A stretch of 42,736 nucleotides of DNA, taken from an uncultured Bacteroidia bacterium. Lineage in GTDB: Bacteria > Bacteroidota > Bacteroidia > Bacteroidales > UBA932. The stretch's first letter is position 1; every line of letters begins with the position of its first letter. The position numbers and the translations under genes are program-made. The DNA lies in assembly GCA_902769525.1 (NCBI GenBank), contig CACXPG010000015.1, forward strand, positions 1 through 42,736. The letters run 5' to 3'. Under the pieces are notes generated by a model. That model worked only from the letters and a program-made list of their open reading frames with translations. It had not been told where the DNA came from and searched no databases. Shown here piece after piece: positions 12,247 through 37,970 of this stretch.

Positions 12247-13407
12247 TTATTCCAAAGAAAGCTTGTTGACTACCGGATTGCTGTAAACCTTCAGATAGAG
12301 GTTCATAAGAGGCAGCAGGCTATCTTTCCATCTGGATAGAGTGGCGTGCATCACGTCTGCAAAATGCTTGTATTCTTCCTTGGTGTACCTGTCCGTAAAC
12401 TTGAAGGTGTTGTACAGCATGTCAAACGCTATAAAGTTGTTTGTGAACAGTTTGTAGCCGGAATAAATCCTAGAGTCTATCAACGATGCGACATAGGACA
12501 GAGCCTCGTTGCGGTCCATCTCGTCGGCTAACTTCAGCTCTTCTGAATCCAGCGGCTTGCAGATGTGTATGTGGATTTTGCCCTTAGGCGAGAGTATACC
12601 CTCCATAATGCTGCGGAAGTCCTCCCCTTCCTCCTTGATGTAAGGATGATCCTCAGACAGGTACAGTTCCCTCACTTTCTGTGCTATGCAGGTCTCCCAT
12701 TCGTAGGACACGGCCATAGGCACGATATTAAGTTCAGAGAAACTGGAGCCTATCTCCTTTCCTCCCGAAAGGGAGAACATCTTAAGGACAGTCTGGCTTG
12801 TCTTGTCATCCCCGTCCTTGGTCCTGCCGTTTCTCTGGGCAATCCATACAGAAGTGCCGCGCTCCTTCAGCACATATCTTATGTAGCTGGAAAGATGGAG
12901 AGAAGTCCGGTAGAAATCCCGTGCCGAACCGCTTCTTACAACCTTGAACATACGGTTAGCCTTTCCGAAGTCGGAGACAATTCCGGGCTGCATCAGATTG
13001 TTGCCGAAGGTTATCTCAGAACAGTCCAGGCCGCTGTTGTAGAGGGCAATCTGGAGCAAGGCGGCATCCAGGAGTATGTCTCTGTGATTTGAAACGAAAA
13101 GATATCCCTTACCCTTTTCAAGATTCTCGAACCCGTCGTATGTAAAGCTGTCCGCGGTCTTTCTCACAATAGCGTTAATGGCATCAAACATAAAGCCTAT
13201 CTGAAACTGGCTCACGGTCTTGTATGCGGCAAACTCCCGGATTCTCTCCCTGACATTCTGACCGTCATAGATGAATTCCATCACCTTTGGAAAGTCCTTG
13301 TGAGAAACGATTCTCTGCATCGCGGCAGGAATCTCGTCGTCCCTGAAAGGGCGGATGTCGTCCCATTCGGGAGTCAAGTCTTTTGGAGTCTTTGCATTGA
13401 TATCCAT
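12247..13407 (-). CDS. PlsC-like acyltransferase, last gene of the polyene operon
   Basis: A 386-residue acyltransferase-fold protein. The motif is NHRDILLD (His108), a variant of the PlsC H-x4-D box: the distal Asp114 is five residues away instead of four, so Asp110 or Asp114 may serve. VWIAQRNGRTKDGDD follows as the second block. It probably transfers acyl chains to glycerol phosphate or a related lipid. No signal peptide is seen. It starts 3 bases after the esterase stop, which makes it the final gene of the 14-gene minus-strand run, although it could be a lipid-metabolism gene that merely rides along. Confidence 0.8.
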   Translation of the reverse strand: MDINAKTPKDLTPEWDDIRPFRDDEIPAAMQRIVSHKDFPKVMEFIYDGQNVRERIREFAAYKTVSQFQIGFMFDAINAIVRKTADSFTYDGFENLEKGKGYLFVSNHRDILLDAALLQIALYNSGLDCSEITFGNNLMQPGIVSDFGKANRMFKVVRSGSARDFYRTSLHLSSYIRYVLKERGTSVWIAQRNGRTKDGDDKTSQTVLKMFSLSGGKEIGSSFSELNIVPMAVSYEWETCIAQKVRELYLSEDHPYIKEEGEDFRSIMEGILSPKGKIHIHICKPLDSEELKLADEMDRNEALSYVASLIDSRIYSGYKLFTNNFIAFDMLYNTFKFTDRYTKEEYKHFADVMHATLSRWKDSLLPLMNLYLKVYSNPVVNKLSLE

Positions 13408-13410
13408 AAC

Positions 13411-14247
13411 CTATTCAAAAACCGTGTTTTCAAGCCATTCCACAAACCTTTCCTGCCAGTTGAACGCTCCTGACCGGGAGGATGCCCTCACACCGAAGCC
13501 GTGCCCTCCCCTCTGGTGGAATTCCACTTTGCAATTTACTCCTTTTTTCTCAAATTCAGAAGCCAGCAGGCGACTTCCTTCTGGGCTGACTATATGATCG
13601 TCCTCGCAGCAAAGAAGAAAGACAGGGGGAAAATCATCGCAGACCCGCTCTTCCAGAGACAATTCCCCTTCCATAGACAAATCGCCCCTGAGCAGATGCT
13701 TCTTAGATGCATGGTGGCAATTAGGCTCACGCATCGTGACTACAGGATAAATCATGGCGGCAAAGGCAGGCCTGTATCTTTTGCTGCTCTCAATGGCGGC
13801 GCATCCGGCCAGATGCCCGCCGGCGGAAAAACCGACCACCCCTATTCTGGAGGTGTCTATTCCCAGTCTTACTGCATTGTCCTTGACATAGTCCATCGCC
13901 TTGCGGTAATCTTCTATCTGCTGAGGGTATCTCGCTCCGAAAAAGCCCATCCTGTAACGCACCACAACAGCCACATAGCCCCTTGAGGCAAACCACTTTG
14001 CCACATCGCGGCCTTCCGAGTTTACGGCAAGGTAAGTATAGCTTCCGCCCGGAAGGATGAGAACGGCCGGCATATAGGTAGTGGCAGCCACTGGCTCGTA
14101 AACGAAAACCATTGAACGGTATCTGCCTTCTGAATGCGCCGCTTTGCCTGGCCACAGCTTCGCTTCCTCCACAAGGTTCTGGGCCCTGGATTCAGCCGTG
14201 CAAACGACGAGCGCAAACAGACACAGCATCAATCTAAACCATCTCAT
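13411..14247 (-). CDS. Secreted alpha/beta hydrolase (acetyl-esterase-like)
   Basis: I place the start at 14247 (MRWFRLMLCLFALV), because it begins with a clean Sec signal peptide ending ESRAQ and overlaps the upstream stop by 14 bases. An in-frame ATG at 14301 would bury the signal. The 278-residue product has the oxyanion PGGSY motif, nucleophile elbow GFSAGG (Ser141), a CCEDDHIVSPE segment for the acid and a GGHGFG His near the C-terminus. This is the layout of BD-FAE/Axe-type carbohydrate or lipid esterases. In this operon it may trim or deacylate the product in the periplasm, which is inference. Confidence 0.85.
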   Translation of the reverse strand: MRWFRLMLCLFALVVCTAESRAQNLVEEAKLWPGKAAHSEGRYRSMVFVYEPVAATTYMPAVLILPGGSYTYLAVNSEGRDVAKWFASRGYVAVVVRYRMGFFGARYPQQIEDYRKAMDYVKDNAVRLGIDTSRIGVVGFSAGGHLAGCAAIESSKRYRPAFAAMIYPVVTMREPNCHHASKKHLLRGDLSMEGELSLEERVCDDFPPVFLLCCEDDHIVSPEGSRLLASEFEKKGVNCKVEFHQRGGHGFGVRASSRSGAFNWQERFVEWLENTVFE

Positions 14248-17200
14248 CCTCAGACTTATAAAGATTATTATCCTTGATTCTTGAAGCCTTGAACGAAGCA
14301 TCGGAGTAAGCCTTGTCCTTCAGGTTGGCATATTCGTCTTCATAATACCTCCTGAAAGCCTGAGCCTGCTTGAGCGGCCGTGGCCCGTAAGTCTCAAGAC
14401 TTGAAACCGGAACCCTGTCTTTAACTTCAACGATTACCTTGCCTCTTCTGAGGATGTGTTCGCCTTTTGGCAGCACCTCTCCCGGCCCGAACAGAACTAT
14501 CGGCAAGACATCCATACCCAGCTCTCCTGCCAGAGAGAACGCCCCGCTCTTGAATTTGAGAATGCTGCAGTCTTCACTCCTGGTGCCTTCAGGGAAAACC
14601 AGAATTGAGCAGCCTTCCTCTCTCAGGCGGGAGAAAAGCTTTATGTTCTCCTCCATTCCGTTTTCCGTGCACACGAATCCTGATCTTCTCACCAGAGAGC
14701 CATAAACCGGAGACTTGTAGACCCATCTGTTAGTCATTACAGTAATCTTTGGAGAAAGGGCCTGCAGGTAAAGAAGATCCAGGTGAGACTGATGATTGCT
14801 GATGACGACACTTGGATTGGAAGACTCGAAAAGCCTGTCCGCCTCCCTGAAGGCGTCTTTTCCCTTATATTCCACACCGTTTACTGTCAGAGAGAAAGGA
14901 ACCCGAGGCATTCTCAGGGCAAAGAACCTGAGCTTGCCGCACAGTTTCTGCCTGAGTTTTTCTGAGCTCATTTTCGGGGAGAAAGAAACCCTGAGTTTCA
15001 TCCACAAAAGGGCGAACGCAAATACAGCGGCGCAATAGACAGTTATCGCGATATCTGTGAGCCTTATCGGGAATATCCTGTCTTTACGGTCTTTCCTCAG
15101 CGATTTGCACACCAGAAAGCGGAACAAAATCGGCGGAAGCACAAATGCCAGAGCCACCACGCAAAGCATTCCTATCACGGCAACTGCCCCTAGGGAATGA
15201 AGGGCGGGATGGACTGCAAACACAAGGGACCCGATGCCCACGAACATTGTCAAGGCAGAAAGCGTGACACCAGTCTTGTATGACGAGAGAAGAGGCTTCC
15301 TGAACGTGTGCTCGTACTGAAGGCCTTCCACCATAAATATCGTGTAGTCGTCGCCCAGGCCAAATATGAATGTAGCCAGAATGATATTCACTATGTTGAA
15401 GCTGACTCCGAAGATTCCCATTATGCCGGTTATCCAGATCCAGCTGACAACCATCGGAAGGAAAGCGGCCAGCGCAAGCTCCAGACGGCGGAAAGCAATC
15501 CACAGGAACACGAACACCAGGACAGAACAGATAGCCAGAACCTTGTTGAAGTCATTCTGAAGAATGTCTATCATCTTGTCTGTCATAGAGAAAGAGTCGA
15601 AAAGGAAAGACCCTTCAGCCTTACCTTTAAAAGCGTCAAAACCGGCATATACCTCATCCGCCTTTTCAGAAGGCGAGTACAGGATGCTCATAACCAGAGT
15701 CTGCGAAGAATCCCTGAGAATAAATGGAGAAAGCAAAGAAGAAATCTCGCTGAAGCCGGAGACGTCAACACTCTGCCACTCTTTGTCCAGAGTCTCCCGG
15801 AAAGAGTTGAAGGCATCAGCGCTGAAGCCGGCCTTGCCAGCGTAGGTGTCTATCGCCTGAAGGAGAGCGCCTTTGTTCTTGTTCACGAAACCATTCCAAA
15901 GGTTCAGCCTCTCCCTCTGCTTTGAAGCCGATGGGAGCAAAGAGCCGATTCCTCTGGTTTTCAGAACCTTCCCGTCTGAAATCATGGAAGATATGAAACC
16001 GCTGTTCTTCTCCGAAGCCTCAAGTGCCTGGTCCAGGTCCTTGCCTTCAGACACGGCATAGACTGCCAGCGTCCCTTCGGTGTTTGTGTGGGATGAGAAT
16101 TCGTCCAGCAGCTTCTGCTGGCTCTCTGCCATATAGTTGATCTTGGTGAAATCTCCGCTGAAAGTGACCTTGCGGCTGAAAAAGAAAAGAACTGCGGTTA
16201 CAGCAAGCAGAATCCAGAACACATAGCGGTGCTCTTCCGGACGGAATCCGGCCCAACGGCCCATCCAGCCGCCATCTCTTTGTCTATAGTCCTTAACCCT
16301 CACCCAGTGAGGCAAAAACAATATCACGAACAATATTGCTCCTACCAGAGAAACCGCGGCGAACAGACCGAAGTCCCTCATTCCGGAAGCGCTCATAACC
16401 AGCAGAGAAAGAAATGCTCCAACCGTGGTGGCGTTCCCTATCACCATAGGGCTCGCGATGTCTCTCAGGGCAACTCTGGCATCTTTTGTAAAGCCCAGAC
16501 GGGTGGAATACAGCAGCGAGTAATCCACTGCAATTCCAAATATCACGCAGCAGGCTGCCAGAGCCACGCTGGAGATGCTGGACTGGAACACTCCCATAAA
16601 CGCCAGGCCTGAAAGAATGCCGAACACTACCGGAACGCAGATAAGCAGAATAGGCCTCAGCCTTCTGAAATACCAGGCCAGAAGCCCAACAATCAGCACA
16701 ATCGATATCGCGGCGCAGGTGGCGGCGTCTTTTTTCATCCTTTCCGCATTCATCACCGCAATTACCGGAGAGCCGGTGAATTCCATCTGGACATCTGGAT
16801 AAAGAGTTGTCACCGAATCTCTTATGGCATAGACAGCAGAAAGCAAAGCCGTGTTGCCCTTAGTGTCGCTTCCACCGTAGGCGGAGGAGAAGTTCATCAT
16901 CACTCCGGTGGAGTCCGGCGTAAAAAGATAGTCTCCGATAACCTTGTAGCCACTTTCTGACCCAAGGGCGGACAGTTCCCTAAGAACCCTGGATGAAAAA
17001 TGGAGAGGATCTGCCGATATCACCCTTTCTATCATTCCGCTGGAAGCGACCAGAGCCTCCCTGTCCCCTTCCAGTATAGACGCATAATCTCCCGCGGCAA
17101 CTATTGAATCCATCGCGGAGTAATCTGAAGAATCCAGAAAAAAAGGCATATTCTCCGCGATAAAACCAGAAAGCGAAAGCATTCTGGCTGCGTCAACCTT

Positions 17201-17548
17201 TATGACAGGATCGTTGATTCCTTCTATCTGGGCCTCCTCCAGCCTCCACGAGAACTCGTCGGCGGCCTGGCTGAGCAGGTCTATGTCAGAAAAACGGTCT
17301 TCCCCCTTTGACTTGAGACGCATGATGGACATCACCTTGTCCTGGCGCCTAAGGTTCTGGTACACGAACTGGCTCTGCCGGCTGCTTTCCCCTGTTCCGT
17401 AAGGCAGAAAAGCCGCAATGTCGTCGTCCAGAACAATCCTCCTTGCACAAAGGAAGAAAACCCCGGCCAGAATCAAAGGAACCAAAAATGCCAAAAAGCG
17501 CTTCCCGCTTGAGAAAAAATCATAGATTTTCAGCAGAACCTTTTCCAT
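14234..17548 (-). CDS. MMPL/RND-type exporter fused to a PlsC-type acyltransferase
   Basis: A 1104-residue fusion. Residues ~1-850 are an MMPL-type exporter with two repeated halves: an N-terminal membrane helix, a large periplasmic loop and a bundle of membrane helices (first bundle about 275-420, second about 670-850), including FGLGDDYTIFMVEGLQYE. Residues ~880-1070 are a PlsC/LPLAT acyltransferase with NHQSHLD (His919, Asp924) and FPEGTRS (985-991). In aryl-polyene and flexirubin clusters MMPL exporters are thought to move lipid-linked polyenes across the inner membrane. The fused cytoplasmic acyltransferase suggests that acylation is coupled to export. It starts 2 bases after the upstream gene and overlaps the next by 14. 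Confidence 0.9.
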   Translation of the reverse strand: MEKVLLKIYDFFSSGKRFLAFLVPLILAGVFFLCARRIVLDDDIAAFLPYGTGESSRQSQFVYQNLRRQDKVMSIMRLKSKGEDRFSDIDLLSQAADEFSWRLEEAQIEGINDPVIKVDAARMLSLSGFIAENMPFFLDSSDYSAMDSIVAAGDYASILEGDREALVASSGMIERVISADPLHFSSRVLRELSALGSESGYKVIGDYLFTPDSTGVMMNFSSAYGGSDTKGNTALLSAVYAIRDSVTTLYPDVQMEFTGSPVIAVMNAERMKKDAATCAAISIVLIVGLLAWYFRRLRPILLICVPVVFGILSGLAFMGVFQSSISSVALAACCVIFGIAVDYSLLYSTRLGFTKDARVALRDIASPMVIGNATTVGAFLSLLVMSASGMRDFGLFAAVSLVGAILFVILFLPHWVRVKDYRQRDGGWMGRWAGFRPEEHRYVFWILLAVTAVLFFFSRKVTFSGDFTKINYMAESQQKLLDEFSSHTNTEGTLAVYAVSEGKDLDQALEASEKNSGFISSMISDGKVLKTRGIGSLLPSASKQRERLNLWNGFVNKNKGALLQAIDTYAGKAGFSADAFNSFRETLDKEWQSVDVSGFSEISSLLSPFILRDSSQTLVMSILYSPSEKADEVYAGFDAFKGKAEGSFLFDSFSMTDKMIDILQNDFNKVLAICSVLVFVFLWIAFRRLELALAAFLPMVVSWIWITGIMGIFGVSFNIVNIILATFIFGLGDDYTIFMVEGLQYEHTFRKPLLSSYKTGVTLSALTMFVGIGSLVFAVHPALHSLGAVAVIGMLCVVALAFVLPPILFRFLVCKSLRKDRKDRIFPIRLTDIAITVYCAAVFAFALLWMKLRVSFSPKMSSEKLRQKLCGKLRFFALRMPRVPFSLTVNGVEYKGKDAFREADRLFESSNPSVVISNHQSHLDLLYLQALSPKITVMTNRWVYKSPVYGSLVRRSGFVCTENGMEENIKLFSRLREEGCSILVFPEGTRSEDCSILKFKSGAFSLAGELGMDVLPIVLFGPGEVLPKGEHILRRGKVIVEVKDRVPVSSLETYGPRPLKQAQAFRRYYEDEYANLKDKAYSDASFKASRIKDNNLYKSEDEMV

Positions 17549-17550
17549 AG

Positions 17551-18657
17551 CTATCCGAAAATCTTATGATAAAGCATCCGGGGATATCCGTACACCAGGG
17601 CTCCGCCAGTAAGGAAGGTATTCATCAGGGAAATCCTGGTGAAATCCGCGCCCCTTCGGAAATGAGTCACCCGGTCTTCCGGGTAAACTACATCTACAGG
17701 CACTTCCAGAAGACGGAAACCCCTCCAGGCCATCCTCACAAGAACTTCTGTCTCAAACTCATACCGGTTGCCCAGGAAACGGGTCCTGCAAATCTTTTCA
17801 AGAGGATAAAGCCTGAGGCCGCTCTGGGTGTCGCCCACTTTTCTGCCGGTCTGCACTGTCAGCCAGAAATTGGAGAAGTTGTTGGCGAACTTTCCGCCGC
17901 TGTCTGCTCCCCTTTTGCTGCGGCTTCCCACTATTATCGTTTTTTCCCTCTGTTTTTCCTCAAGACTCAGCGATTTGTCTATCAGAGACTTTGCTCCGGA
18001 AATCGTGTGCTGGCCATCAGCGTCAAAAACCACCGCGTATTTGAATCCCAACTGAAGAGCCTTCCTAAAACCTTGCCTTATGGCATAGCCCTTTCCCCTG
18101 TTCTTCTCGTAGGAAACCAGGGCGGAAGGACCGGCAAGACGTGCCTGGTCCAGACTCTTGCCGTCTGTAGAGCCGTCATTGACCGCGATAACGGGATAAC
18201 CGGCTGCCATAACAGAAGTTATGACATTGTTTACAGTATCTGGATTATTGTAGAACGGTATCACTAAACACACATCGCTGCAGCACTCTTCAAGGATGGC
18301 TGTCACTGAAGCCGCAGATATCTTTTCTTCTGTCCGGAGGATGGAGTATGAAATCTTTGCCTTGAATTTTCCGCCATCTTCGCCAAGGGCGATGGAAACT
18401 GCCAGCTTCTCTGCCACAGAAGGCTCCACGGCAACCTTGAACCTGGCGTCTGAAACCTTTACAACCCTCATTTTCTTTCCAAGAGCCTTGCCGCAAAGAT
18501 CTGCTCCTATGCCCAGAAGAACTGCTCCGGGAACTATTGGCTTCCCCGGGAAATGAACCTGGAAAAGCCAGTGGCTGATGTCCAGAACCAGGACTGAATC
18601 GATTGTCTGCCCGTCAAATGAAAATGCTTCGGTTGAATATAGTCCTTCCAGTGTCAT
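17551..18657 (-). CDS. Hot-dog dehydratase (ApeI-like) fused to a GT2 glycosyltransferase
   Basis: A 368-residue bifunctional protein. Residues 1-~120 are a FabZ/ApeI-like hot-dog domain with VHFPGKPIVPG (His35 as the expected catalytic base). Residues ~127-340 are a GT2 domain of the dolichyl-phosphate-mannose-synthase type: LVIPFYNNPD, AVNDGSTDG, KNRGKGYAIRQG and the metal-binding FDADGQH (Asp212, Asp214). No C-terminal membrane helix pair is evident. One chain thus carries a late chain-building step and a sugar-transfer step. It starts 4 bases after lolA and 2 bases before the exporter gene. Confidence 0.9.
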   Translation of the reverse strand: MTLEGLYSTEAFSFDGQTIDSVLVLDISHWLFQVHFPGKPIVPGAVLLGIGADLCGKALGKKMRVVKVSDARFKVAVEPSVAEKLAVSIALGEDGGKFKAKISYSILRTEEKISAASVTAILEECCSDVCLVIPFYNNPDTVNNVITSVMAAGYPVIAVNDGSTDGKSLDQARLAGPSALVSYEKNRGKGYAIRQGFRKALQLGFKYAVVFDADGQHTISGAKSLIDKSLSLEEKQREKTIIVGSRSKRGADSGGKFANNFSNFWLTVQTGRKVGDTQSGLRLYPLEKICRTRFLGNRYEFETEVLVRMAWRGFRLLEVPVDVVYPEDRVTHFRRGADFTRISLMNTFLTGGALVYGYPRMLYHKIFG

Positions 18658-18661
18658 AGCG

Positions 18662-19264
18662 TCAGTTGAAAAGTTGCATATCCAGATCAGAGTCTTTTTT
18701 CAGATTGCTGAACGTTATCAGAGTATATCCGGAAGACGAACGGATTTCAAAAGACTTGATCGTTGAAGAAGGGATGTCGAAAACCATTATCACGCTCTCT
18801 ACCATGCTTTTCATTCTCGGCGATACTGGAACAGCGGTAACAGTGAGCAAATTGCCGGATTTGGAGTATGTCACGGAATAGTCTTTCAGATCCTGCGAAA
18901 GGCCGCTCATAAGAGAAGTGACCATCTTGCCGGTCTGGCCGAAGCCTCTTGACAAAGCCCCGTTCCTCTGCCCGTCCTTTACCATATAGGCGCCCTTGGG
19001 ATTGAGGACTCCGTAATTGCGGCTGTCATATTCCCATCTCATGTATGAGGGAGACTTGTACCAGAGCTTTCCTGTTGTCACGACATCTTCAGTGAGCATT
19101 TTCAGGTGTTTGGTCTCCGTAAAATCAGATGTCATGCTTTTAATCGAGCGCGTGGCAGACACTATCTTGTCAAAGGCCGCCTTCTCCTGGGCTGTCTGGG
19201 CAAAGGAAGGTGCCGCAAACAGCAGGACTACAGCCAAAAGCAGATATGATCCTATCTTCTTCAT
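18662..19264 (-). CDS. LolA-like periplasmic lipoprotein carrier
   Basis: A 200-residue protein with a Sec signal peptide (1-22, ending PSFAQ) and a LolA-like fold: IKSMTSDFTETKH, GKLWYKSPSYMRWEY, NPKGAYMVKDG. LolA proteins carry hydrophobic ligands across the periplasm. LolA paralogues recur inside aryl-polyene and flexirubin clusters, where they are thought to accept the polyene lipid from the exporter. This copy sits between the DMT transporter (1-base gap) and the dehydratase-glycosyltransferase (4-base gap), so it is likely pathway-specific and not the housekeeping LolA. Confidence 0.85.
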   Translation of the reverse strand: MKKIGSYLLLAVVLLFAAPSFAQTAQEKAAFDKIVSATRSIKSMTSDFTETKHLKMLTEDVVTTGKLWYKSPSYMRWEYDSRNYGVLNPKGAYMVKDGQRNGALSRGFGQTGKMVTSLMSGLSQDLKDYSVTYSKSGNLLTVTAVPVSPRMKSMVESVIMVFDIPSSTIKSFEIRSSSGYTLITFSNLKKDSDLDMQLFN

Positions 19265-19265
19265 C

Positions 19266-19622
19266 TTATTTCTGGACTATGAGTATCGCTCCGATTATAA
19301 TCAGCGCCACGCCCACATATCTTACAAACGGAATATGCTCGTGGAACACAACTCCTGCAACTATCAGACCGAGAACATAACTGAAACTGATCATCGGATA
19401 GGCCGCGCTGAACGGATAGTGCTTAAGAATGTAAAACCAGAGAACAGATGCACCTCCCATGCAAAGGCCGCAAAGCAGGAAATTCCAGTCTGTGAACAGC
19501 TGCTTTATGCACCTCCAGGTAAAGGACAGCTTGTCTATCTTGTTCATCGTGAACTTGAGAAACATCTGGCCGAACACGAGCAGGGCGCTCTGGACTATAG
19601 AAAGCAATATCAGTTTGTACAT
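19266..19622 (-). CDS. Small DMT-family membrane protein (EamA/SMR, ArnE-like)
   Basis: I choose the start at 19622 (MYKLILLSIVQ), giving 118 residues with four hydrophobic helices. Upstream ATGs would add a polar extension inside the previous gene. The length and the four-helix pattern, with SYVLGLIVAGVVFHEHIPF in the third and fourth helices, fit single-domain DMT proteins such as ArnE/ArnF, which flip undecaprenyl-linked sugars. A flippase role for the glycosylated or lipid intermediate is an inference from the adjacent glycosyltransferase. It overlaps the upstream gene by 13 bases. Confidence 0.82.
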   Translation of the reverse strand: MYKLILLSIVQSALLVFGQMFLKFTMNKIDKLSFTWRCIKQLFTDWNFLLCGLCMGGASVLWFYILKHYPFSAAYPMISFSYVLGLIVAGVVFHEHIPFVRYVGVALIIIGAILIVQK

Positions 19623-20506
19623 ATTCCGGAAAGCAAAATATATGAATGGCCTATGGATGATTCTCCCGAAAGAAGGATCCTCCTGGCACCGTTGTTTTTC
19701 AGAGCCTGACAGCAGCAGAAAAGCCCGAATGCGGAAGCGCTCAGAAATTCTCCGCAATATTTCTTGTAGTCTTCCGGCATTACCGTAAGGTCTATGTCAT
19801 CGCGATTAAGGCCATTGGATGATAGCATCCTGTCCAGCTCCCACTCAGGGTTGGAGCGGGTCTGAACCATATCCTCCACAACAGCAAAGGCCCCTTCAGG
19901 AGAAGAAGACAGCACAAAGGCGCAGGCTCCTTCAGACACCGGAATCCCCTTCCACAGGCCTTCCACGTTGAGCATCCGGTACAGGCCTTCAGTCATCTGG
20001 TCTGCAGTGCAGAGCAAAACATTCTTGACGCTTCCCTTCTGCAGCAAAAACAGGCAGTCCTGCAGGGCTCCCTCCATTGCAAACCTGTCGTCCACGTGAG
20101 TGGAGTTGAATCCTTTGCAGCCCAGGGAAATGGCAATCTGTGAACCGATGGTGTTAGGCGTTGAGCAGATGAACTTTGAAGGATTGAGCATAGATTCTCC
20201 GTCCTCCACCATCTTCGTAAGGAAAGCCTCCGTATCTGAAACGCATCCGTTTCCGGTTCCCGTGATAATTGCATCCGGGCACGCAATTCCGCATTCTGAG
20301 AGAGCGTGCTTTGATACAGCAATGCTTCTCTTTAGAATGCCGCTCATCCTCCGCCCTGCCATAGGATTGATATACTGCTTGAAATCAGGGTCTTTGCAAG
20401 GCACAAACACTCCTTCTGCAGGAAGGGCGGCAAAGTCCTCCATCCTTGAGAAAGGCTCCTGGGCCGAAATGGCCGAGGCTGCTATTATGTATGCCTTGTT
20501 TTTCAT
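19610..20506 (-). CDS. Ketosynthase-like chain length factor (ApeC-type), no catalytic Cys
   Basis: A 298-residue protein of the beta-ketoacyl synthase-like family used as chain length factor in aryl-polyene type II systems. I start it at 20506, which makes an ATGA overlap with the ketosynthase stop; an ATG three codons upstream is possible. The STPNTIGSQIA and GCKGFNSTHVDD segments align with the ketosynthase core, but the nucleophile Cys position holds no Cys. It is about 80-100 residues shorter than a full ketosynthase. It should form the heterodimer partner of the product of 20503-21705. Confidence 0.85.
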   Translation of the reverse strand: MKNKAYIIAASAISAQEPFSRMEDFAALPAEGVFVPCKDPDFKQYINPMAGRRMSGILKRSIAVSKHALSECGIACPDAIITGTGNGCVSDTEAFLTKMVEDGESMLNPSKFICSTPNTIGSQIAISLGCKGFNSTHVDDRFAMEGALQDCLFLLQKGSVKNVLLCTADQMTEGLYRMLNVEGLWKGIPVSEGACAFVLSSSPEGAFAVVEDMVQTRSNPEWELDRMLSSNGLNRDDIDLTVMPEDYKKYCGEFLSASAFGLFCCCQALKNNGARRILLSGESSIGHSYILLSGICTN

Positions 20507-21705
20507 ATCGAGCAAGCAGATGAAAATATCAATGATGAATCGTTTCCTCCGAAACCGAACGAATTGCTCATCACGTGCCTTAACTGCACATCCTTCAAAT
20601 TTTCGGTCACAGGGCAGAAATTCAGCCCCGGATCCTTGGTCTCAAACCTCAGGTTGGCAGGAATAAATCTGTTCTGGATGCAAAGTATAGATATTACGGC
20701 TTCCAAAGCTCCCGCCGCGCTGGTTGCGTGACCTGTAAAGCATTTGGTGGAGCCCACATAAGGCATCTTGTCCCCGAACAGAGTCATAAGCGCAACTCCT
20801 TCAGACAGGTCGTTGTTTTCTGTTCCCGTGCCGTGGGCGTTCACATAATCAATGTCTGACGGACTAAGCCCTGCCACATCCAGAGCCGCCTGCATTGCCG
20901 CCAGAGCTCCCCTTCCGTCTGGAGAGGAGGCTGTCTGGTGGTATGCGTCGCAGGCATTTCCCCAGCCGGAGAGCAATGCCCTGACCCTCGCTCCACGCAT
21001 ATCAGCATGCTTCTTGCTTTCCATCACGATGAAAGCGGCTCCCTCGCCCAGGTTCAGCCCTTTTCTGGAAGCGTCAAACGGGCGGCAAGGATTGCTGTCC
21101 AGAATCATAAGGCTGTTGAAACCGTTCAGATGGTATTTTGTCAGACATTCCGTACCACCGGCTATCACAATGTCATATTCTCCAGAGAGAATCAGTTCCG
21201 CTCCGAAGGCTATTGCATTGGCCGCCGCGCTGCAAGCCGTGGAAATCACATCTGTATATGCAACATCGCAACTCAGAGCATCTGCTATGAAGTCTGTCGA
21301 AACGCCGTTCAGGTGAAGCCTTATCAGCTGGCTGAAGTCAGGATTCTTGCCAAACTCCTTGAAGTAGCGCTCGGTGATGTCCATTCCGCCAACCGTTGTT
21401 CCGCTTATCAGGGCAACCCTGGTTCCAGGAATCAATCCGGCGTCTTCTTCCGCCTGCCTGGCAGCCACGATACCCAGCAAAGAGGAACGTGAAATAACCC
21501 TCCCCTTGTCTTCGCGGCACAAGTCATACAGCTGGGAATCAGAAAGGTCCACCTCACCGCAAGGAAGGTCAGAATGTGAAGTGGAAAGATGCTTCAAAGG
21601 AGCTATAGGACAGATGCCGTCCACAAGATGACGGTAAGTCTGTTCCAGGCCAACGCCCAGAGCAGAGATTATACCGGCTCCTGTTATGGCAATTTGCCTA
21701 TGCAT
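20503..21705 (-). CDS. Beta-ketoacyl-ACP synthase (type II PKS ketosynthase)
   Basis: A 400-residue FabF-like condensing enzyme with a full triad: Cys158 in ISTACSAA, His291 in NAHGTGTENND and His326 in KCFTGHATSAAGA. It extends the ACP-bound chain with malonyl units. It is followed at once by the Cys-less chain length factor (4-base overlap) and preceded by the ACP (15-base gap), the standard minimal PKS order. ApeR/ApeO-type enzymes of aryl-polyene pathways are the nearest match I recognise. A FabF duplicate is less likely given the neighbours. Confidence 0.92.
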   Translation of the reverse strand: MHRQIAITGAGIISALGVGLEQTYRHLVDGICPIAPLKHLSTSHSDLPCGEVDLSDSQLYDLCREDKGRVISRSSLLGIVAARQAEEDAGLIPGTRVALISGTTVGGMDITERYFKEFGKNPDFSQLIRLHLNGVSTDFIADALSCDVAYTDVISTACSAAANAIAFGAELILSGEYDIVIAGGTECLTKYHLNGFNSLMILDSNPCRPFDASRKGLNLGEGAAFIVMESKKHADMRGARVRALLSGWGNACDAYHQTASSPDGRGALAAMQAALDVAGLSPSDIDYVNAHGTGTENNDLSEGVALMTLFGDKMPYVGSTKCFTGHATSAAGALEAVISILCIQNRFIPANLRFETKDPGLNFCPVTENLKDVQLRHVMSNSFGFGGNDSSLIFSSACSI

Positions 21706-21720
21706 CAGAACTTGGGTAAA

Positions 21721-21969
21721 CTATTTGTTCTCCTCGATGAAACTTGCCATTGTGGCGACACTTGCAAAAACGCCCTTGGCCTTTGCCGGATCGGTGAGCT
21801 TTATTCCATAATTCTTCTCCAGAAGAACTATAAGTTCCAGCGCGTCAATCGAATCCAGTCCGAGTCCATCTGGACCGAACAAAGGTGCATCATCGTTAAT
21901 ATCCTCAGGTTTAAGCTCTTCCAAATTCAGAGCGTCTATAATCTGAGTTTTCAGTTTCAGGGTATCCAT
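21721..21969 (-). CDS. Acyl carrier protein
   Basis: An 82-residue ACP with the phosphopantetheine site LGLDSIDALEL (Ser40). It is acidic and of normal length. The DS-I motif and the surrounding DALELIVLLEK helix fit type II ACPs. It is the only ACP in the operon, whereas many aryl-polyene clusters have two. The 66-base gap before it is the largest inside the run and may carry extra regulation, but I see no clear promoter box there. Confidence 0.93.
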   Translation of the reverse strand: MDTLKLKTQIIDALNLEELKPEDINDDAPLFGPDGLGLDSIDALELIVLLEKNYGIKLTDPAKAKGVFASVATMASFIEENK

Positions 21970-22035
21970 AATTATCTATTTAAGATGCGCAAGTTACCAA
22001 AAGTTTTTGAAAAAGCCGCTATTATCTCCGATTTA

Positions 22036-22470
22036 CTAGACTGCAACCTTAATCTGGCTCTCCGCAACGACAGCTCCGTTTTCGGTCTTGACTACTGCAG
22101 ATGCCAGAAGCACTCCCATAGCCTCGGCTTTAGGGGTGATATGAGTGAAGATTCTTTCTCCCGCTTTTGGGAAACACGAAATGGACAAACCTTTGACTGA
22201 GCCTATTACGCCAGGCTTCACAGGCAGTTCGTGAAGCCAGTCATAAAAGCCGATCCTGGCGGCGCAGCTCTGGGCAATGTTCTCCATTATGCCTTCTGCC
22301 CTGAATATGCCGTCTTCGACAAACACACCGTCCTTGGGAACCGTGTAGGAAGTGGTAACGGCGGTTGTAGCTTCATCGTAAGACTCCAGCCGGTCTATCA
22401 GCACAAAAGGCCGGCGGTGAGGCAGGATGACAAGAATGTCCAGAGTTGTTATGTCGTCAATTGTTCTCAT
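22036..22470 (-). CDS. 3-hydroxyacyl-ACP dehydratase, ApeP/FabZ-like
   Basis: A 144-residue hot-dog protein. LPHRRPFVLIDRL near residue 16 is the FabZ/ApeP signature and RAEGIMENIAQSCAARIGF is the long central helix carrying the acidic residue. It should remove water from 3-hydroxyacyl-ACP to leave the conjugated double bonds. It is the second dehydratase of the operon, beside the hot-dog half of 17551-18657. This matches the ApeI/ApeP pairing of aryl-polyene systems. It overlaps the acyltransferase stop upstream by 14 bases. Confidence 0.88.
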   Translation of the reverse strand: MRTIDDITTLDILVILPHRRPFVLIDRLESYDEATTAVTTSYTVPKDGVFVEDGIFRAEGIMENIAQSCAARIGFYDWLHELPVKPGVIGSVKGLSISCFPKAGERIFTHITPKAEAMGVLLASAVVKTENGAVVAESQIKVAV

Positions 22471-23362
22471 TGTCCTCTATCTTCCAGAAATCGTAGAAAT
22501 TGAACCACTGCAGCGGATACTCTCTGACAATCTTCTCCAGAACGTCCACGTATGCCTGTCCGTAGGCTCTCGCCCTGGCTTCACGGCCCTTGATCGAATC
22601 ATCGATGGCCAGTGGCTGCGCATATACCTTGTATTTGAAGTTCTTTCCTGTACCAAGAACAAACATTACGACTATGTTTGCCTTGTAACGGTCTGCTATA
22701 CTGTAAATTCCTGTCGGGAACCAGGCTTCTTTGCCAAGAAAACTGAACTTCTGGCGGCGCCTTCCCGTAAACACGCGGTCTCCTGTAAGAGTCACGGCTT
22801 CGCAGGCAGAAAAAGCATCGTTGAGCTTGAAGATGTATTCCATATCCTGGCCAACCCCTATCATCTCGATATTGTTGTCCCCCATAGCATCAGACCTCAT
22901 CTGCTTCATCTTCTCCGTCTCGCCGGAAAAGGTGAGCACATTGAGTTTCTTCTCCAGCTTTCCGCACAGATAGGAAGATATTTCAAAGTTGCCCACGTGG
23001 GCCCCCACCAGAACCAGAGGTTTAGGAGTGTTGAAATGCCTGTAGAACATGTCCTCATCCAGGTTGACCACCGTATAACGGTCTTTGTGTCCGGCAAATA
23101 CATAGAAACGGTCCATCAGGAACTTCCCGAAAAGAATATGGTTGCGGTATGTGCCGACTGCCGCCTTGAAAAAGGAGAAGCCCTGCCTTCTTCTCAGATA
23201 CGAATAAATAGCATAGGCCCGCTTTCGGGCAAAAATCAGATATCCGCACACAACGAACGGGAGGAAGCAGTATATCACCCTGATATTCACGTGCTTCATC
23301 AGACGCATAAGCATTCCCTGCTTTGCGTTTCCGCCACCCGTTTTACCGCCCCATTCAGGCAT
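22457..23362 (-). CDS. LpxL/HtrB-type lysophospholipid acyltransferase
   Basis: A 301-residue member of the lipid A acyltransferase family, with the H-x4-E box in VGAHVGNFE, an N-terminal membrane-associating segment (about 24-44) and a GDRVFTGRRRQKFSFLGKEA stretch typical of the family. Such enzymes also occur in aryl-polyene clusters, where they are thought to attach the polyene to a lipid. It starts 4 bases after fabG and overlaps the dehydratase gene. It could alternatively be a true lipid A acyltransferase. Confidence 0.88.
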   Translation of the reverse strand: MPEWGGKTGGGNAKQGMLMRLMKHVNIRVIYCFLPFVVCGYLIFARKRAYAIYSYLRRRQGFSFFKAAVGTYRNHILFGKFLMDRFYVFAGHKDRYTVVNLDEDMFYRHFNTPKPLVLVGAHVGNFEISSYLCGKLEKKLNVLTFSGETEKMKQMRSDAMGDNNIEMIGVGQDMEYIFKLNDAFSACEAVTLTGDRVFTGRRRQKFSFLGKEAWFPTGIYSIADRYKANIVVMFVLGTGKNFKYKVYAQPLAIDDSIKGREARARAYGQAYVDVLEKIVREYPLQWFNFYDFWKIEDNENN

Positions 23363-23366
23363 CTTG

Positions 23367-24095
23367 CTAGGTATTCAGTCCGCCGTTTATCTCAATGACC
23401 TGGCCGGTAATGTAAGCGGCCTTGTCCGATGCGAGGAAAGCAACCAGGTCTGCAACCTCATCTGCAGTGCCGAATCTTCCGGCAGGGATGGTCTCTTTCA
23501 AGGCATTCTGGTCCAGTTCTTTTGTCATGTCAGTCTCCACGAATCCGGGAGCCACGGCGTTTACAGTAACCCTTCTCTTTGCTACCTCCAGGGCCAGCGC
23601 CTTGGTGGCGGCTATCACTCCGCCCTTGGCTGCAGAGTAGTTGGTCTGCCCCGGCATTCCCTTGATTCCGGAAAGCGATGCCACGCTAACCACCCTGCCC
23701 CATTTCTTCTTTGCCATCGGGGTTATGAGCTTGCGCGTGGTGTGGAAGAATCCGTTAAGGTGGATGTTAACCACATCATACCAGTCAGCATCCTCCATCC
23801 ACATCATAAGGCCGTCCCTGCGGATTCCAGCATTGTTTACCAGAACGGCTATGTAATCGTCCGGATGAGCGGCAATCCATCCGTCCAGGGCGGCGTCCGT
23901 CTCCTTCAGGTCCGCAACATTGAATTTCAGAAGCTCGGCCACTCCGCCAGAACTCTCTATCTCACGCTTCACCTCAAGAGCCGCGTCTTCTCTGCTTACA
24001 TAGTTGATTATCACAGGATAGCCCTCTTTTGCAAGAGCTTTGCTTATTGCAGCCCCGATACCTCGGCTGCCTCCGGTTACAAGTGCGTATTTCAT
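23367..24095 (-). CDS. 3-oxoacyl-ACP reductase, FabG-like
   Basis: A 242-residue short-chain dehydrogenase. The nucleotide motif is TGGSRGIG, followed by NNAG, and the catalytic residues are Asn114, Ser140, Tyr153 and Lys157 in NYSAAK. The APGFVETDM segment is typical of FabG. It supplies the ketoreduction step of the polyene chain. It overlaps the MurU-like gene by an ATGA and is 4 bases from the acyltransferase gene. It could be a second copy for fatty acid synthesis, but its position argues for the pathway. Confidence 0.9.
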   Translation of the reverse strand: MKYALVTGGSRGIGAAISKALAKEGYPVIINYVSREDAALEVKREIESSGGVAELLKFNVADLKETDAALDGWIAAHPDDYIAVLVNNAGIRRDGLMMWMEDADWYDVVNIHLNGFFHTTRKLITPMAKKKWGRVVSVASLSGIKGMPGQTNYSAAKGGVIAATKALALEVAKRRVTVNAVAPGFVETDMTKELDQNALKETIPAGRFGTADEVADLVAFLASDKAAYITGQVIEINGGLNT

Positions 24096-24856
24096 AATTG
24101 AACTAATTTTCTTTTTAGGAATTCTTCAGCGAGGGGAAGGTGCTCCAGCCGGCCCACATCTATCAGCTCTAGTTTGCGGATAAACCGTCCTTCAAAATGC
24201 CAGTCGGCAGCATTTGAAAGATAGAAATCCACTATGGAGAATTTCTCCTCCCAGCTCTTCATAACTTCCAGTATCTTAGGAGAAAGCACGTGGATTCCGC
24301 CGAAAGCGCATGGACGAAGTCCGGACGTGTCCAAGAACGGAGGCTTTATCTCTCCAGTCTTGATATTCTCCCAGCCCCTGAGCCTCATATTGGAGTCGAA
24401 CAGCAGACGGCGGTCGCTGTAGCGGCCGCTTACAACCACGCATCCTATAACGTCAGAAGAGCGCATCTTCCTGCAGCAGGAATTGTAAAAACGCCTCAGG
24501 TCCAAGTCTGAAAGTATATCCACATTGTGGACCAGGAATGGTTCGCCATCTGAAAGCAAAGAAGCGGCATGGCGGATTCCTCCACCGGTATCTCTCAACA
24601 AATCAAACTCTTCGGAGAACTGCACACGAAGTCCGCAATGCGGATTCTTCTCAAAGAACTCCCGCACTGCGTCTTCCACCATCTGACCAAAGTGGTGGAC
24701 ATTTATCACGATATCCTTAAAGCCGAAAGAAGACAGCCTGAGAAGCTGCCACTCCAGAAGACTCCTCCCCCCGACTTCCACCAGAGCCTTCGGCCTGTCA
24801 TCGGTCAGTGGCCTGAGCCTTGTTCCCAATCCCGCTGCAAAAATGAGGGCTTTCAT
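24092..24856 (-). CDS. Sugar-1-phosphate nucleotidyltransferase, MurU-like
   Basis: A 254-residue nucleotidyltransferase. The N-terminal signature FAAGLGTRLRPLTDDRPKAL and VHNVDILSDLDL (metal Asp) are intact, and the length equals that of MurU (MurNAc-1-P uridylyltransferase). It directly follows an AmgK-like kinase after 6 bases. In Pseudomonas, AmgK and MurU return MurNAc to UDP-MurNAc in cell wall recycling. The same pair is inferred here, although mannose-1-phosphate or glucose-1-phosphate cannot be excluded. Confidence 0.85.
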   Translation of the reverse strand: MKALIFAAGLGTRLRPLTDDRPKALVEVGGRSLLEWQLLRLSSFGFKDIVINVHHFGQMVEDAVREFFEKNPHCGLRVQFSEEFDLLRDTGGGIRHAASLLSDGEPFLVHNVDILSDLDLRRFYNSCCRKMRSSDVIGCVVVSGRYSDRRLLFDSNMRLRGWENIKTGEIKPPFLDTSGLRPCAFGGIHVLSPKILEVMKSWEEKFSIVDFYLSNAADWHFEGRFIRKLELIDVGRLEHLPLAEEFLKRKLVQL

Positions 24857-24862
24857 CCAGGA

Positions 24863-26281
24863 CTAAACTTCCTCTTCTATATCCAGTTCGCGATGGGTGA
24901 GCTTCACCTTCACGTTGAATTTCTTTGCTATGTGGTCTGCCAGATGCCTTGCGCAGTAAACGCTGCGGTGCTGGCCTCCGGTGCATCCGAAGCATACCTG
25001 CAGATGGGTGAACTTCCTCTCCACAAACCTCTTTACGTGAGGATCCACTATGTCATACACATTTGCCAGGTATTTTTTGATTCCGCCCTCGTCCTCAAGG
25101 AACTTGATAACCGGCTCGTCCAGTCCGGTGAAGGTCTTGTACCTCTCGAACTTGCCAGGATTCTCCAGGCCTCGGCAGTCGAAGACATATCCTCCTCCGT
25201 TTCCGCTGTCGTCCATCGGGATGCCCTTCTTGTATGCAAATGAGAATATGTGCACTTCCAGAGTCACGTCCCTGCGCAAATCCTTGAGCTGGCGCATCTT
25301 GGTCAATTCCGTCAGGACCTGCTGAAGATAAGGATACTCAACAAAAGGTTTCTTGATCAGTTTCCTCAGGTTCTCGATCGCGAAAGGAATGCTCTGCAGG
25401 AAATGAGGCTTCTTTTCAAAATAACCCCTGAAACCGTATGCTCCAAGAACCTGCAGTGTGCGGAACAGCACAAACAGCCTCAGGTCGTGGTTGAATTCCT
25501 TCTCGGAAACCATCACGTATTTCTTGAGTTCCTTGCGGTATGTCGCTATGAGAATTTCTTTCAGTTCGTCTGAATAGTTGGCCCTGGCCTGCCATACAAA
25601 CGATGCGATATCGTAGTAGAACGGGCCTTTCCTTCCGCCCTGGAAGTCTATGAAATAAGGCTTGCCGTCTTTGAGCATGACGTTCCTGGCCTGGAAATCG
25701 CGATACATGAAAGTGCTGCCCCTCATCACTCCCAGAAGGTCAGAGCACATCTTCTCCATATCCTGATGGAGCTTTATCTCGCTGAACTCCAGACCGCTGG
25801 TCTTAAGGAAACAATACTTGAAGTAGTTGAAGTCGAACCAGATGTTCCTCTCGTCAAACTCCGGCTGAGGAAAACAGACGGAATAGTCCATATCCCTTCC
25901 GCCCTCAAACTGGAACTTAGGCAGAAGCGCCATAGTTTTCTTCAGCAGAGCCACTTCCTTGGCACTGTAAGAGCCTTTCTGTCTTCCCGATGCTATTGCG
26001 TCAAACAGGGAAACCGTTCCCAGGTCCTCCTGCAGATAATAAACCTTGTCTGAAGACACGGTGTAAACCTCCGGCACATTCAGCCCCACATCCCTGAAAT
26101 GGTTGGCCAGAGAGACAAAAGCCTTGTTCTCTTCCACAGAAGTGCCCATCGCCCCTATCAGCGATATCCCTTCTGCCTTGAGCCTGAAGTATCTGCGGTT
26201 GCTTCCGCTCTGCGGCAACTCTTCGCAGGACAAACATTTCTTGCCTGTATATTGCTTGAATAATTCTTCCAGTTGTTTCAT
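24863..26281 (-). CDS. AmgK-like sugar kinase fused to a RapZ C-terminal domain
   Basis: A 472-residue fusion. Residues 1-~325 are an aminoglycoside-phosphotransferase-fold kinase with catalytic loop YRDFQARNVML (Asp195, Asn200) and DFG-like IDFQGG (Asp212), as in AmgK anomeric kinases for MurNAc/GlcNAc. Residues ~340-472 match the C-terminal half of RapZ, including CFGCTGGQHRSVY (430-442). In E. coli that half binds glucosamine-6-phosphate. No RapZ N-terminal P-loop domain is present. I infer kinase activity tuned by an amino sugar signal. It is the first gene of the operon. Confidence 0.85.
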   Translation of the reverse strand: MKQLEELFKQYTGKKCLSCEELPQSGSNRRYFRLKAEGISLIGAMGTSVEENKAFVSLANHFRDVGLNVPEVYTVSSDKVYYLQEDLGTVSLFDAIASGRQKGSYSAKEVALLKKTMALLPKFQFEGGRDMDYSVCFPQPEFDERNIWFDFNYFKYCFLKTSGLEFSEIKLHQDMEKMCSDLLGVMRGSTFMYRDFQARNVMLKDGKPYFIDFQGGRKGPFYYDIASFVWQARANYSDELKEILIATYRKELKKYVMVSEKEFNHDLRLFVLFRTLQVLGAYGFRGYFEKKPHFLQSIPFAIENLRKLIKKPFVEYPYLQQVLTELTKMRQLKDLRRDVTLEVHIFSFAYKKGIPMDDSGNGGGYVFDCRGLENPGKFERYKTFTGLDEPVIKFLEDEGGIKKYLANVYDIVDPHVKRFVERKFTHLQVCFGCTGGQHRSVYCARHLADHIAKKFNVKVKLTHRELDIEEEV

Positions 26282-37109: not shown

Positions 37110-37970
37110 TTAGTCCCATCCTTCCACCCCAGCGTCAATTGAGATTTCTATCTGCTCCTGATCTGGAGAAGTGTTTAGTGTAACGTTAATCGTGTGAATG
37201 TAGCCAGCCCTAAAGCTCAGCGAAGTTTCTAGAAGGTAAGCGATTCCTCCCATTGAGAGTTCAATGAGAGGTGTTCTTTTCTCAAGGTTTTGAGGCACAA
37301 CAATTGCCTCAAACCTCTCGTTGCTTATCTTCTTCATGGTTATCGTGTTTTTCCCTGCGAATATATCTTTCTCTATTGATCCAGAGGTCATATTCACATA
37401 GCAGTCTGTGATTGTGCTGTAAACGTGGGCTACAACATCATCTGGTATCTCTCCGTCAAACTCGGGGCCTTTTATAAGGTTAACTGCAACCTTTGACATT
37501 ATGTGCCCGAACTGCATAAGCACCGGGCCATCTGTTCTGGTCTTATTCTCTGAATAAGCATACAGCAGGTCTGAATTCTCATATCCTTCTCCAGATTGAT
37601 CCAATGCTACTGAGAATGGTTGCTTTTCAATTGAGTTAATGCTTGTCTGATAAGGATACAGGGCATAGAAATCGCAAGGATTATCACTCCAATAAAGAGT
37701 CCTTTGGCTTGTCCATGCGCTCCCACTATAGGTTATCTTCTCATTGTTTAGATAGTTTCCAGACACCTGTATAGGCATCGGCTCATTTCCACGCCATTCT
37801 ACGGCATACAGACTCACAGCATCCCCACTTTCAAAAGCAGTTGAGGTTACCTTGGTAGCGCCTTTACCAATGGAGAACATAAACTCTATCTGGTTGGTCG
37901 TTGGAACCTGACTTTTGCTGCATGACAGAACAACCAAACCTGCAAGTATTATATAGATAAACTTTTTCAT
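37110..37970 (-). CDS. Fimbrillin-family lipoprotein
   Basis: A 286-residue lipoprotein. The signal ends VVLSCS with lipid Cys17. It resembles Mfa_like_1 fimbrillins: EFMFSIGKGATKVTSTAFES, GDAVSLYAVEW, then YALYPYQ and a second domain with FGHIMSKVAVNLI. A single stand-alone fimbrillin unit is a candidate subunit for the neighbouring display proteins. It lies 28 bases downstream of the M64 protease gene on the same strand. Confidence 0.88.
   Translation of the reverse strand: MKKFIYIILAGLVVLSCSKSQVPTTNQIEFMFSIGKGATKVTSTAFESGDAVSLYAVEWRGNEPMPIQVSGNYLNNEKITYSGSAWTSQRTLYWSDNPCDFYALYPYQTSINSIEKQPFSVALDQSGEGYENSDLLYAYSENKTRTDGPVLMQFGHIMSKVAVNLIKGPEFDGEIPDDVVAHVYSTITDCYVNMTSGSIEKDIFAGKNTITMKKISNERFEAIVVPQNLEKRTPLIELSMGGIAYLLETSLSFRAGYIHTINVTLNTSPDQEQIEISIDAGVEGWD

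Follow-up and report, generated by a model that had tools for sequence, protein, structure and literature searches.

The window analysed here is a 42,736-nucleotide stretch from an uncultured Bacteroidia bacterium (Bacteroidales; UBA932; assembly GCA_902769525.1, contig CACXPG010000015.1), and it carries an operon of 14 minus-strand open reading frames (ORFs) at 12247-26281 with the core of a type II polyketide synthase (PKS). The operon probably forms the extension, attachment and export half of a PKS of the aryl polyene (APE) or flexirubin type, and sequence comparison points to a ketosynthase-chain length factor (KS-CLF), acyl carrier protein (ACP) and ligase module on another contig of the same genome (C5) as the part that would load the starter, replacing an ammonia lyase. 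The pathway is likely of the APE/flexirubin type, with its genes spread across two loci, perhaps three, and the ligase module in the lyase's place; its predicted product is an aryl-polyene-like lipid.

Relation of the operon to aryl polyene clusters

All 14 ORFs were present with a spacing of -68 to +66 bp (with the starts chosen for genes 8 and 9), the widest gap, of 66 bp, separating the ACP gene from the ApeP-like one. Gene families in the window were assigned by Pfam and NCBIfam profile matches. The layout and the parts described in the original prediction (ACP, KS, CLF without Cys, FabG, dehydratases, acyltransferases, glycosyltransferase, MMPL exporter, flippase and LolA) were borne out, with the families found and the residues intact; the part list was refined in that the second dehydratase is fused to a glycosyltransferase (GT2) and one acyltransferase to the MMPL exporter. 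As it had also said, no Pfam or NCBIfam match to a ligase, ammonia lyase, thioesterase or methyltransferase was found inside the operon.

The elongating ketosynthase KS2 (gene 7, 20503..21705) kept C158, H291 and H326 and was followed by the CLF (gene 8, 19610..20506), assigned by family and by the missing Cys, with Arg141 at the Cys site by alignment to FabF and in alignment A1. The CLF's own PF13723 score of 23.7 was slightly short of the cut-off of 25 bits, its homologues carry PF13723 (named 'beta-ketoacyl synthase chain length factor') and its closest named relative belonged to a yak-rumen Bacteroidales metagenome-assembled genome (97%). The ACP (gene 6, 21721..21969) kept Ser40 and scored 71.1 with NCBIfam PRK09184 (cut-off 70). 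The ketoreductase (KR; gene 3, 23367..24095), FabG/ApeQ-like, kept S139, Y153 and K157; its top Pfam match, PF13561, also carries an enoyl-reductase description, it was the only one of the 14 genes to match a family that includes enoyl reductases, and no separate enoyl reductase was found among them. Gene 5 (22036..22470) encodes an ApeP-like hotdog dehydratase subunit, assigned by alignment with E. coli ApeP, with Glu63 and Gln67 invariant in alignment A2; it had no Pfam match, no BLAST match to ApeP and weak FabZ matches. Gene 11 (17551..18657) encodes an ApeI-like dehydratase subunit (His35) fused to a GT2 domain resembling the N-half of ApeJ. The dehydratase part aligned with E. coli ApeI, PF22818 (ApeI-like) was precomputed on a 98%-identical protein, and the FabA domain scored 26.8 against 23 bits. 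We take ApeI and ApeP to be a dehydratase pair sharing one active site.

Genes for attachment and export were also present. These are an LpxL-type acyltransferase (gene 4, 22457..23362; Pfam Lip_A_acyltrans, H122-X4-E127), an ApeM-like MMPL exporter with a fused PlsC-type acyltransferase (gene 12, 14234..17548; ApeD-like, H919-X4-D924), a PlsC-family acyltransferase (gene 14, 12247..13407; PF01553, 26.1 bits against 23), a small DMT/ArnE-ArnF-like flippase (gene 9, 19266..19640, a chosen start, as the ORF extends further upstream; EamA, with the ArnF and ArnE models under cut-off) and a LolA-like lipid chaperone (gene 10, 18662..19264; Pfam LolA), for which the nearest NCBIfam model was flexirubin LolA2 (114.9 bits against a cut-off of 125).

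The annotated ape cluster of E. coli CFT073 was the reference for blastp, and on our own assignment the letters ApeA to ApeR were given to its genes by the order in the available part of PMC8253772 and by the products in the record. KR showed 43% identity to ApeQ, ACP 52.5% to ApeE and 38% to ApeF, KS2 34% to ApeO and 29% to ApeR, and the GT2 domain 33% to the N-half of ApeJ, while the LpxL-type transferase matched the C-terminal half of ApeJ (residues 264-556) at 25%. In gene 12, the MMPL part matched ApeM at 22% and the fused acyltransferase ApeD at 26%. Overall, BLAST paired seven genes or domains with ApeD, E, J, M, O and Q, and four more matched ApeC, I, L and P by family or alignment; ApeA, B, F, G, H, K, N and R were the best blastp match of no operon gene. 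Values of dN/dS were 0.03-0.17 in each gene pair tested (nine genes, up to six congener pairs), which indicates purifying selection.

In a FastTree phylogeny of 59 KSs, the window KS sat among KSs preceding CLFs in Bacteroidota clusters, including those of flexirubin clusters. A 45-member clade (support 1.0) held the window KS group, ApeO and the group of KS1, the KS of the C5 module; E. coli FabF and the organism's own FabF, encoded separately on C5, fell outside. Within it, the split of the ApeO and KS1 groups from the KS2 group was weakly supported (0.19-0.28). The KS did not fall with housekeeping FabF, the placement that would have spoken against the original prediction, and the APE/flexirubin logic proposed there is supported by the Ape matches and by the tree. 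Flexirubin itself is not supported, with no match to a DarA-like query in the genome (DarB was not part of the search).

The candidate starter module and its distribution

The organism's own genome (2.23 Mb, 92% complete) was searched for starter genes. The search for ammonia lyases (HAL or tyrosine ammonia lyase, TAL) suggested in the original prediction yielded no candidate starter lyase in this 92%-complete assembly: the single PF00221 match was hutH (591 with the hutH model against a cut-off of 539; 349 with the FlxA model against 700), beside genes that we took to be hutI, hutU and ftcD, and none was FlxA-like. Four PF00501 proteins were found. One of them, an AMP-forming acyl ligase at C5:77819-79129, comes after an ACP gene (PF00550), and this pair adjoins a 576-aa fusion of a KS to a CLF-like half, KS1-CLF1 (C5:75887-77614); the others are on contigs C2, C8 and C9. 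None of the four had a BLAST match to four FlxY-type queries, one of which passes the FlxY model, no search of the genome with that model having been run. FlxY-type ligases were seen in 18 loci of the family and phylum, one of which (L049) passes the FlxY model, and within the genus the loci include L148 (G111) and L189 (G201).

KS1 retains the C-H-H residues. The structure model of KS1-CLF1 (27 sequences) had a pLDDT of 92.8, and its first Foldseek match was the PfaC KS-CLF over 757 columns at TMq 0.75, but with an rmsd of 7.2; single KSs in that search gave TMq 0.54-0.59. A profile of free-standing mini-CLFs from other clusters had its best match with chain B of the ishigamide KS/CLF (E 0.0036).

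The search of the genus covered every one of the 39 genomes returned for it. Of these, 26 had an APE-type CLF and 18 a C5-type ligase (at least 53% identity), split in two in G188; the ligase genomes were 18 of the 26 with the CLF against 0 of the 13 without it. Eight of the 39 carried a second type of ammonia lyase (PF00221 E 1e-151 to 1e-163; hut type 1e-178 or lower). The 26 CLF genomes divided into 18 with the ligase, 6 with the lyase and 2 with neither (G180 and G207), and none carried both. Fisher tests gave p 2.6e-5 for ligase with CLF and p 1.2e-4 for the exclusion of ligase and lyase, values that are indicative only, as the tests treat related genomes and ignore shared ancestry. The second lyase type was carried by 6 of the 8 CLF genomes without ligase, in 3 of these 6 within the orthologous operon. 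Its place there is between the NTP-transferase and KR genes, as found in G003, G144, G162, G208 and G210 (loci L191, L192, L193, L194 and L199); the corresponding genes 2 and 3 of the window overlap by 4 bp. In G111, G043 and G201 the second lyase was in another APE-type cluster. The lyase of G003, the single copy tested, passes the FlxA model (852 against 700 bits). A LuxS gene was also observed between the NTP-transferase and flxA of the lyase-type operon of G003 (L124, 1282-1764).

Gene order in congeners ties the C5 ligase to the operon. In five congeners the distance between the ligase and the core CLF is 6-16 kb. In G086 and G067 the ACP-ligase pair stands beyond gene 14 and follows a DJ-1-like gene, with KS1-CLF1 within or adjoining the operon; in G056, G026 and G184 one contig holds the core CLF together with the ligase and KS1-CLF1. 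The set of KS1-CLF1, ACP and ligase stands ahead of an M13-peptidase gene in 12 genomes including the own one, each with one full-length KS1-CLF1 match (two pieces in G118) and further matches that were partial (30-38%). In G125 at least 287 kb separate the CLF from either contig end, and the module is on another contig. The C5 KS1 was nearer the KS1s of G184, G056 and G201 than the operon copies of G003, G207, G086 and G067 (FastTree), and from this position the operon copy of KS1 was probably replaced, not moved. The suggestion in the original prediction that the starter comes from elsewhere is likely right in one sense, the C5 module being the candidate and its ACP-ligase pair lying near the core in the five congeners. 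For the ApeH-type ligase, which it also proposed to look for, the C5 ligase is a candidate: it adjoins KS1-CLF1 and the ACP and is linked to the operon by congener gene order, but reaches only 24% identity to ApeH over a partial length.

A third lipid locus of the genome (L167, own contig C1, 8433-18617) holds genes for a PlsC-like protein, a KS (KS0), ACP, MMPL, FAD oxidoreductase, LolA and DUF5686. KS0 branched with ApeR at 0.90 (FastTree) and its best NCBIfam match was FabB, under cut-off; the label ApeR-like is kept for this sequence as a lead only. KS0 (at least 58% identity) was present in all 26 CLF genomes and also in 6 of the 13 without a CLF match, and for this reason it may serve another lipid. 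One genome without a CLF match (G132) has a locus with the order PlsC-KS0-ApeP-ApeI-MMPL-FAD-KR-LolA-thioesterase-DUF5686 (L210), a possible CLF-free polyene or unsaturated-lipid locus.

In the proposed pathway, the C5 ligase would put a carboxylic acid onto the C5 ACP, and the first condensation would be made by KS1-CLF1, perhaps with the ApeR-like KS0 of C1. KS2-CLF, KR and the ApeI:ApeP dehydratase would then extend the chain without enoyl reduction to a polyenoyl-ACP. The LpxL-type and PlsC-type transferases and GT2 may attach the polyene to a lipid or sugar anchor, and the small flippase, MMPL and LolA would carry the product to the outer membrane.

In the available parts of the published descriptions, similar systems share much of this plan. 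The flexirubin flx and dar clusters of Chitinophaga pinensis and Flavobacterium johnsoniae (PMC3992019), where FlxA is a TAL and FlxY a 4-coumarate ligase, have type II KSs, KR, dehydratases, acyltransferase, glycosyltransferase, LolA and exporter in common with the present genes. Five congeners share the ammonia lyase with these clusters as part of the orthologous operon, and the single copy tested is FlxA by its model. The flexirubin clusters differ in that the own genome had no match to FlxA, FlxY-type ligase or DarA and the operon none to a thioesterase or methyltransferase, while a ligase of another lineage is found here at a second locus and the ApeI-like domain is fused to GT2. With the APE clusters of E. 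coli CFT073 and X. doucetiae (PMC8253772), ApeD, E, J, M, O and Q are common by BLAST and ApeC, I, L and P have counterparts by family or alignment, whereas the ApeI-GT2 and MMPL-acyltransferase fusions are found here and the halves of ApeJ are separate genes. As far as that source goes, deletion of apeK in E. coli caused only partial loss of pigment, and the main APE lipid was still present without apeR. The arcuflavin genes of Azoarcus BH72 (PMC3949708, in part) lie on two unlinked loci, similar to the dispersal predicted here, and a mutant in either locus was colourless; there, however, an encoded chorismatase of the XanB2 type supplies the starter acid and dialkylresorcinol (DAR) is present.

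Dehydratase and DAR loci, probable exchange of the core and remaining genes

For the DEHYDRATASES and DAR comparison, the 15 genomes nearest the window operon were used (CLF E ≤ 8.3e-118). ApeI and ApeP were inside the operon in six (the own genome, G156, G086, G067, G144 and G207) and missing from it in nine. DarA-like genes, found in 10 of the 39 genomes, were present in 8 of these nine and in none of the six, a reciprocity of dehydratase (DH) and DAR that amounts to only 1-2 independent contrasts on the tree; the DAR loci of G205 and G209 were placed from coordinates alone. The presumed DarA had no Pfam or NCBIfam match and was so named because the gene precedes a DarB that passes its model. 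A whole-genome search placed the ApeP of genomes whose operon lacks it in a DAR locus or DAR remnant. ApeP was near the DarA-like genes, and three DAR loci among those read (G095, G118 and G150) contained ApeI; none was seen in the stretches read of G125, G203, G206, G202 and G195. The genus search with PF22818 cannot show absence of ApeI because it missed the window's own ApeI.

A loss of dehydration in the sister operons without ApeI and ApeP was considered and rejected, as ApeP is present in 26 of 26 CLF genomes. At least two joint DH losses are suggested by the tree, and this is not claimed, since the approximately unbiased (AU) test did not reject a single DH-minus clade (p 0.069). Loci of the dialkylresorcinol type were L203-L205, L207, L208, L133 and L134. 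The DarB of L203 (G125) passes the NCBIfam model (571 against 550 bits), and ahead of its DarA there is no ApeI, the neighbours being at most 3 bp apart, while L204 (G095) has ApeI there. In L206 (G195) the DAR genes are gone between ApeP and a 288-aa gene that elsewhere comes after the DAR locus, an apparent scar.

Judged by the C5 module, G195 is the nearest relative (99% for the ligase); it has ApeP without DAR genes. Window genes 1-3 showed 93-99% identity to G195 and 91-99% to G156, while LpxL, CLF and LolA were closer to G156 (88-96%) than to G195 (60-67%); the small flippase departed from this pattern, with 96% to G195. The core tree (KS, CLF, MMPL and GT2) rejected a clade of the own genome, G156, G195 and G206 (p 1e-115), and the upstream tree (KR, NTP-transferase and kinase) rejected one of the own genome, G156 and G086 (p 6e-9), the clades having been named after the trees were seen. 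The sequences indicate that the core cassette was probably exchanged between close relatives.

Three further genes belong to the operon. Gene 1 (24863..26281) encodes an AmgK-like sugar kinase fused to a RapZ C-terminal domain (Pfam APH and RapZ C-terminal domain; NCBIfam AmgK 74 bits and RapZ 100 bits, both under their cut-offs), and it opens the orthologous operon in congeners too. Gene 2 (24092..24856) encodes a MurU-like sugar-1-phosphate nucleotidyltransferase (Pfam NTP_transferase; best NCBIfam match the MurU models, under cut-off). The role of gene 1 is probably amino-sugar recycling, with a putative tie to the lipid pathway, and genes 1 and 2 may be cell-wall recycling genes that were carried along. 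RapZ is linked to GlcN6P. Gene 1, with the MurU-like gene 2 after it, is an amino-sugar kinase of unusual build that may contain its own sensor domain. Gene 13 (13411..14301) encodes an alpha/beta hydrolase of the BD-FAE/acetylxylan-esterase type (Pfam BD-FAE; GFSAG motif; 134 bits with the AxeA1 model, under cut-off) whose product is predicted from sequence to be probably secreted. Scanning for promoters and terminators with a sigma-70 consensus, rather than a promoter model for Bacteroidetes, did not mark out the operon boundary clearly. Elsewhere in the window, fimbrillin-like (Mfa) proteins are encoded at 37110-37970 and 41566-42249 near Big_2 and leucine-rich repeat (LRR) proteins. In addition, clusters of the family and phylum (L053, L136, L138 and L043) carry B12-binding radical SAM, amine-oxidase/phytoene-desaturase-like and tryptophan-halogenase-like genes.

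Weighing of alternatives and implications

Besides the relatedness of the genomes in the Fisher tests, several observations weigh against a starter loaded by the C5 module. The module does not share a contig with the operon, and in an assembly that is 92% complete absences are no proof. The match of the C5 ligase to ApeH was weak (24% over 276 aa, E 9e-8), the C5 ACP hardly resembles ApeE or ApeF, and no curated model names the substrate of the ligase, nor did PDB, NCBIfam and homologue searches give one; the aryl starter is a prediction. For KS1-CLF1, hhalign gave only a weak alignment of the mini-CLF with the CLF family (probability 5%, E 0.0075), and the VIA-align rows cover the KS half only (residues 1-374). 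In the operon, CLF, LolA and the ApeI-like and ApeP-like parts had no BLAST match to their E. coli counterparts. Finally, 2 of the 15 genomes of the operon clade had no ligase, namely G144, which has the ammonia lyase, and G207, which has neither and is 78% complete, and G003 has FlxA but no C5-type ligase.

Among the other explanations, a fatty or short acyl starter leading to an acyl polyene or unsaturated lipid, and not to an aryl polyene, was judged unlikely. Such a starter would fit the finding of no dedicated aryl-acid source among the families searched in the own genome, and also the mixed PDB and NCBIfam neighbours of the C5 ligase (malonyl-, feruloyl- and fatty acyl-CoA ligases and nonribosomal peptide synthetase adenylation domains). 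However, congeners hold the lyase in the orthologous operon (FlxA in G003), ligase and lyase are mutually exclusive, and an aryl starter is probably ancestral because the lyase-bearing congener operons share the KS2-CLF lineage. It is more doubtful still that the C5 module makes another product and that the starter comes from a gene in the missing 8% of the genome or from the ligase on C2, C8 or C9. The separate contigs and the further PF00501 proteins on those three would allow this, but G086 and G067 have the ligase-ACP pair beyond gene 14 of this operon, and all 18 ligase genomes have the CLF and none the second lyase type.

Flexirubin proper, an aryl polyene esterified with DAR, is very improbable as the product. 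The LolA is nearest to flexirubin LolA2 and a quarter of the genus carries DarA-like genes (10/39), yet no such match occurred in the six genomes that keep ApeI and ApeP in the operon, the own one included, against 8 of 9 without them; it is the own genome's lack of a DarA match that makes this product unlikely. The least credible explanation, to which hardly any weight was given, is housekeeping fatty-acid synthesis or a decaying remnant: by simple identity the KS is nearly as similar to FabF (33%) as to ApeO (34%), but its position in the tree, the separate FabF, the intact catalytic residues and the low dN/dS all speak against it. Loading of an APE-type operon by the C5 module is the explanation retained as the most probable.

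A more tentative proposal, considered possible, is that, within one operon lineage, the transferable KS-CLF/ACP/ligase module acting on a gut-derived acid took the place of a TAL-derived coumarate starter, and that such modules recombine. In the titles and abstract openings of the literature searched, no description of a swap from TAL to ligase was found; rumen genomes are reported to hold 2,800 APE clusters (PMC8241843, in part), and PMC11839114 was a further source. Annotation of the operon cluster alone leaves the starter unexplained, and the present data indicate the likely place of the starter genes. Three natural arrangements are indicated in one genus, namely ammonia lyase, ligase, and ligase plus DAR, and the choice of starter could be tested through modules that nature already swaps. 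If the starter switch is true, the polyene would be primed with a gut-derived acid such as a plant phenolic acid, and the TAL, ligase and DAR-plus-dehydratase modules would recombine as cassettes and change the polyene chemotype. Anaerobes such as gut Bacteroidales would then make a polyene lipid whose head group is undescribed.

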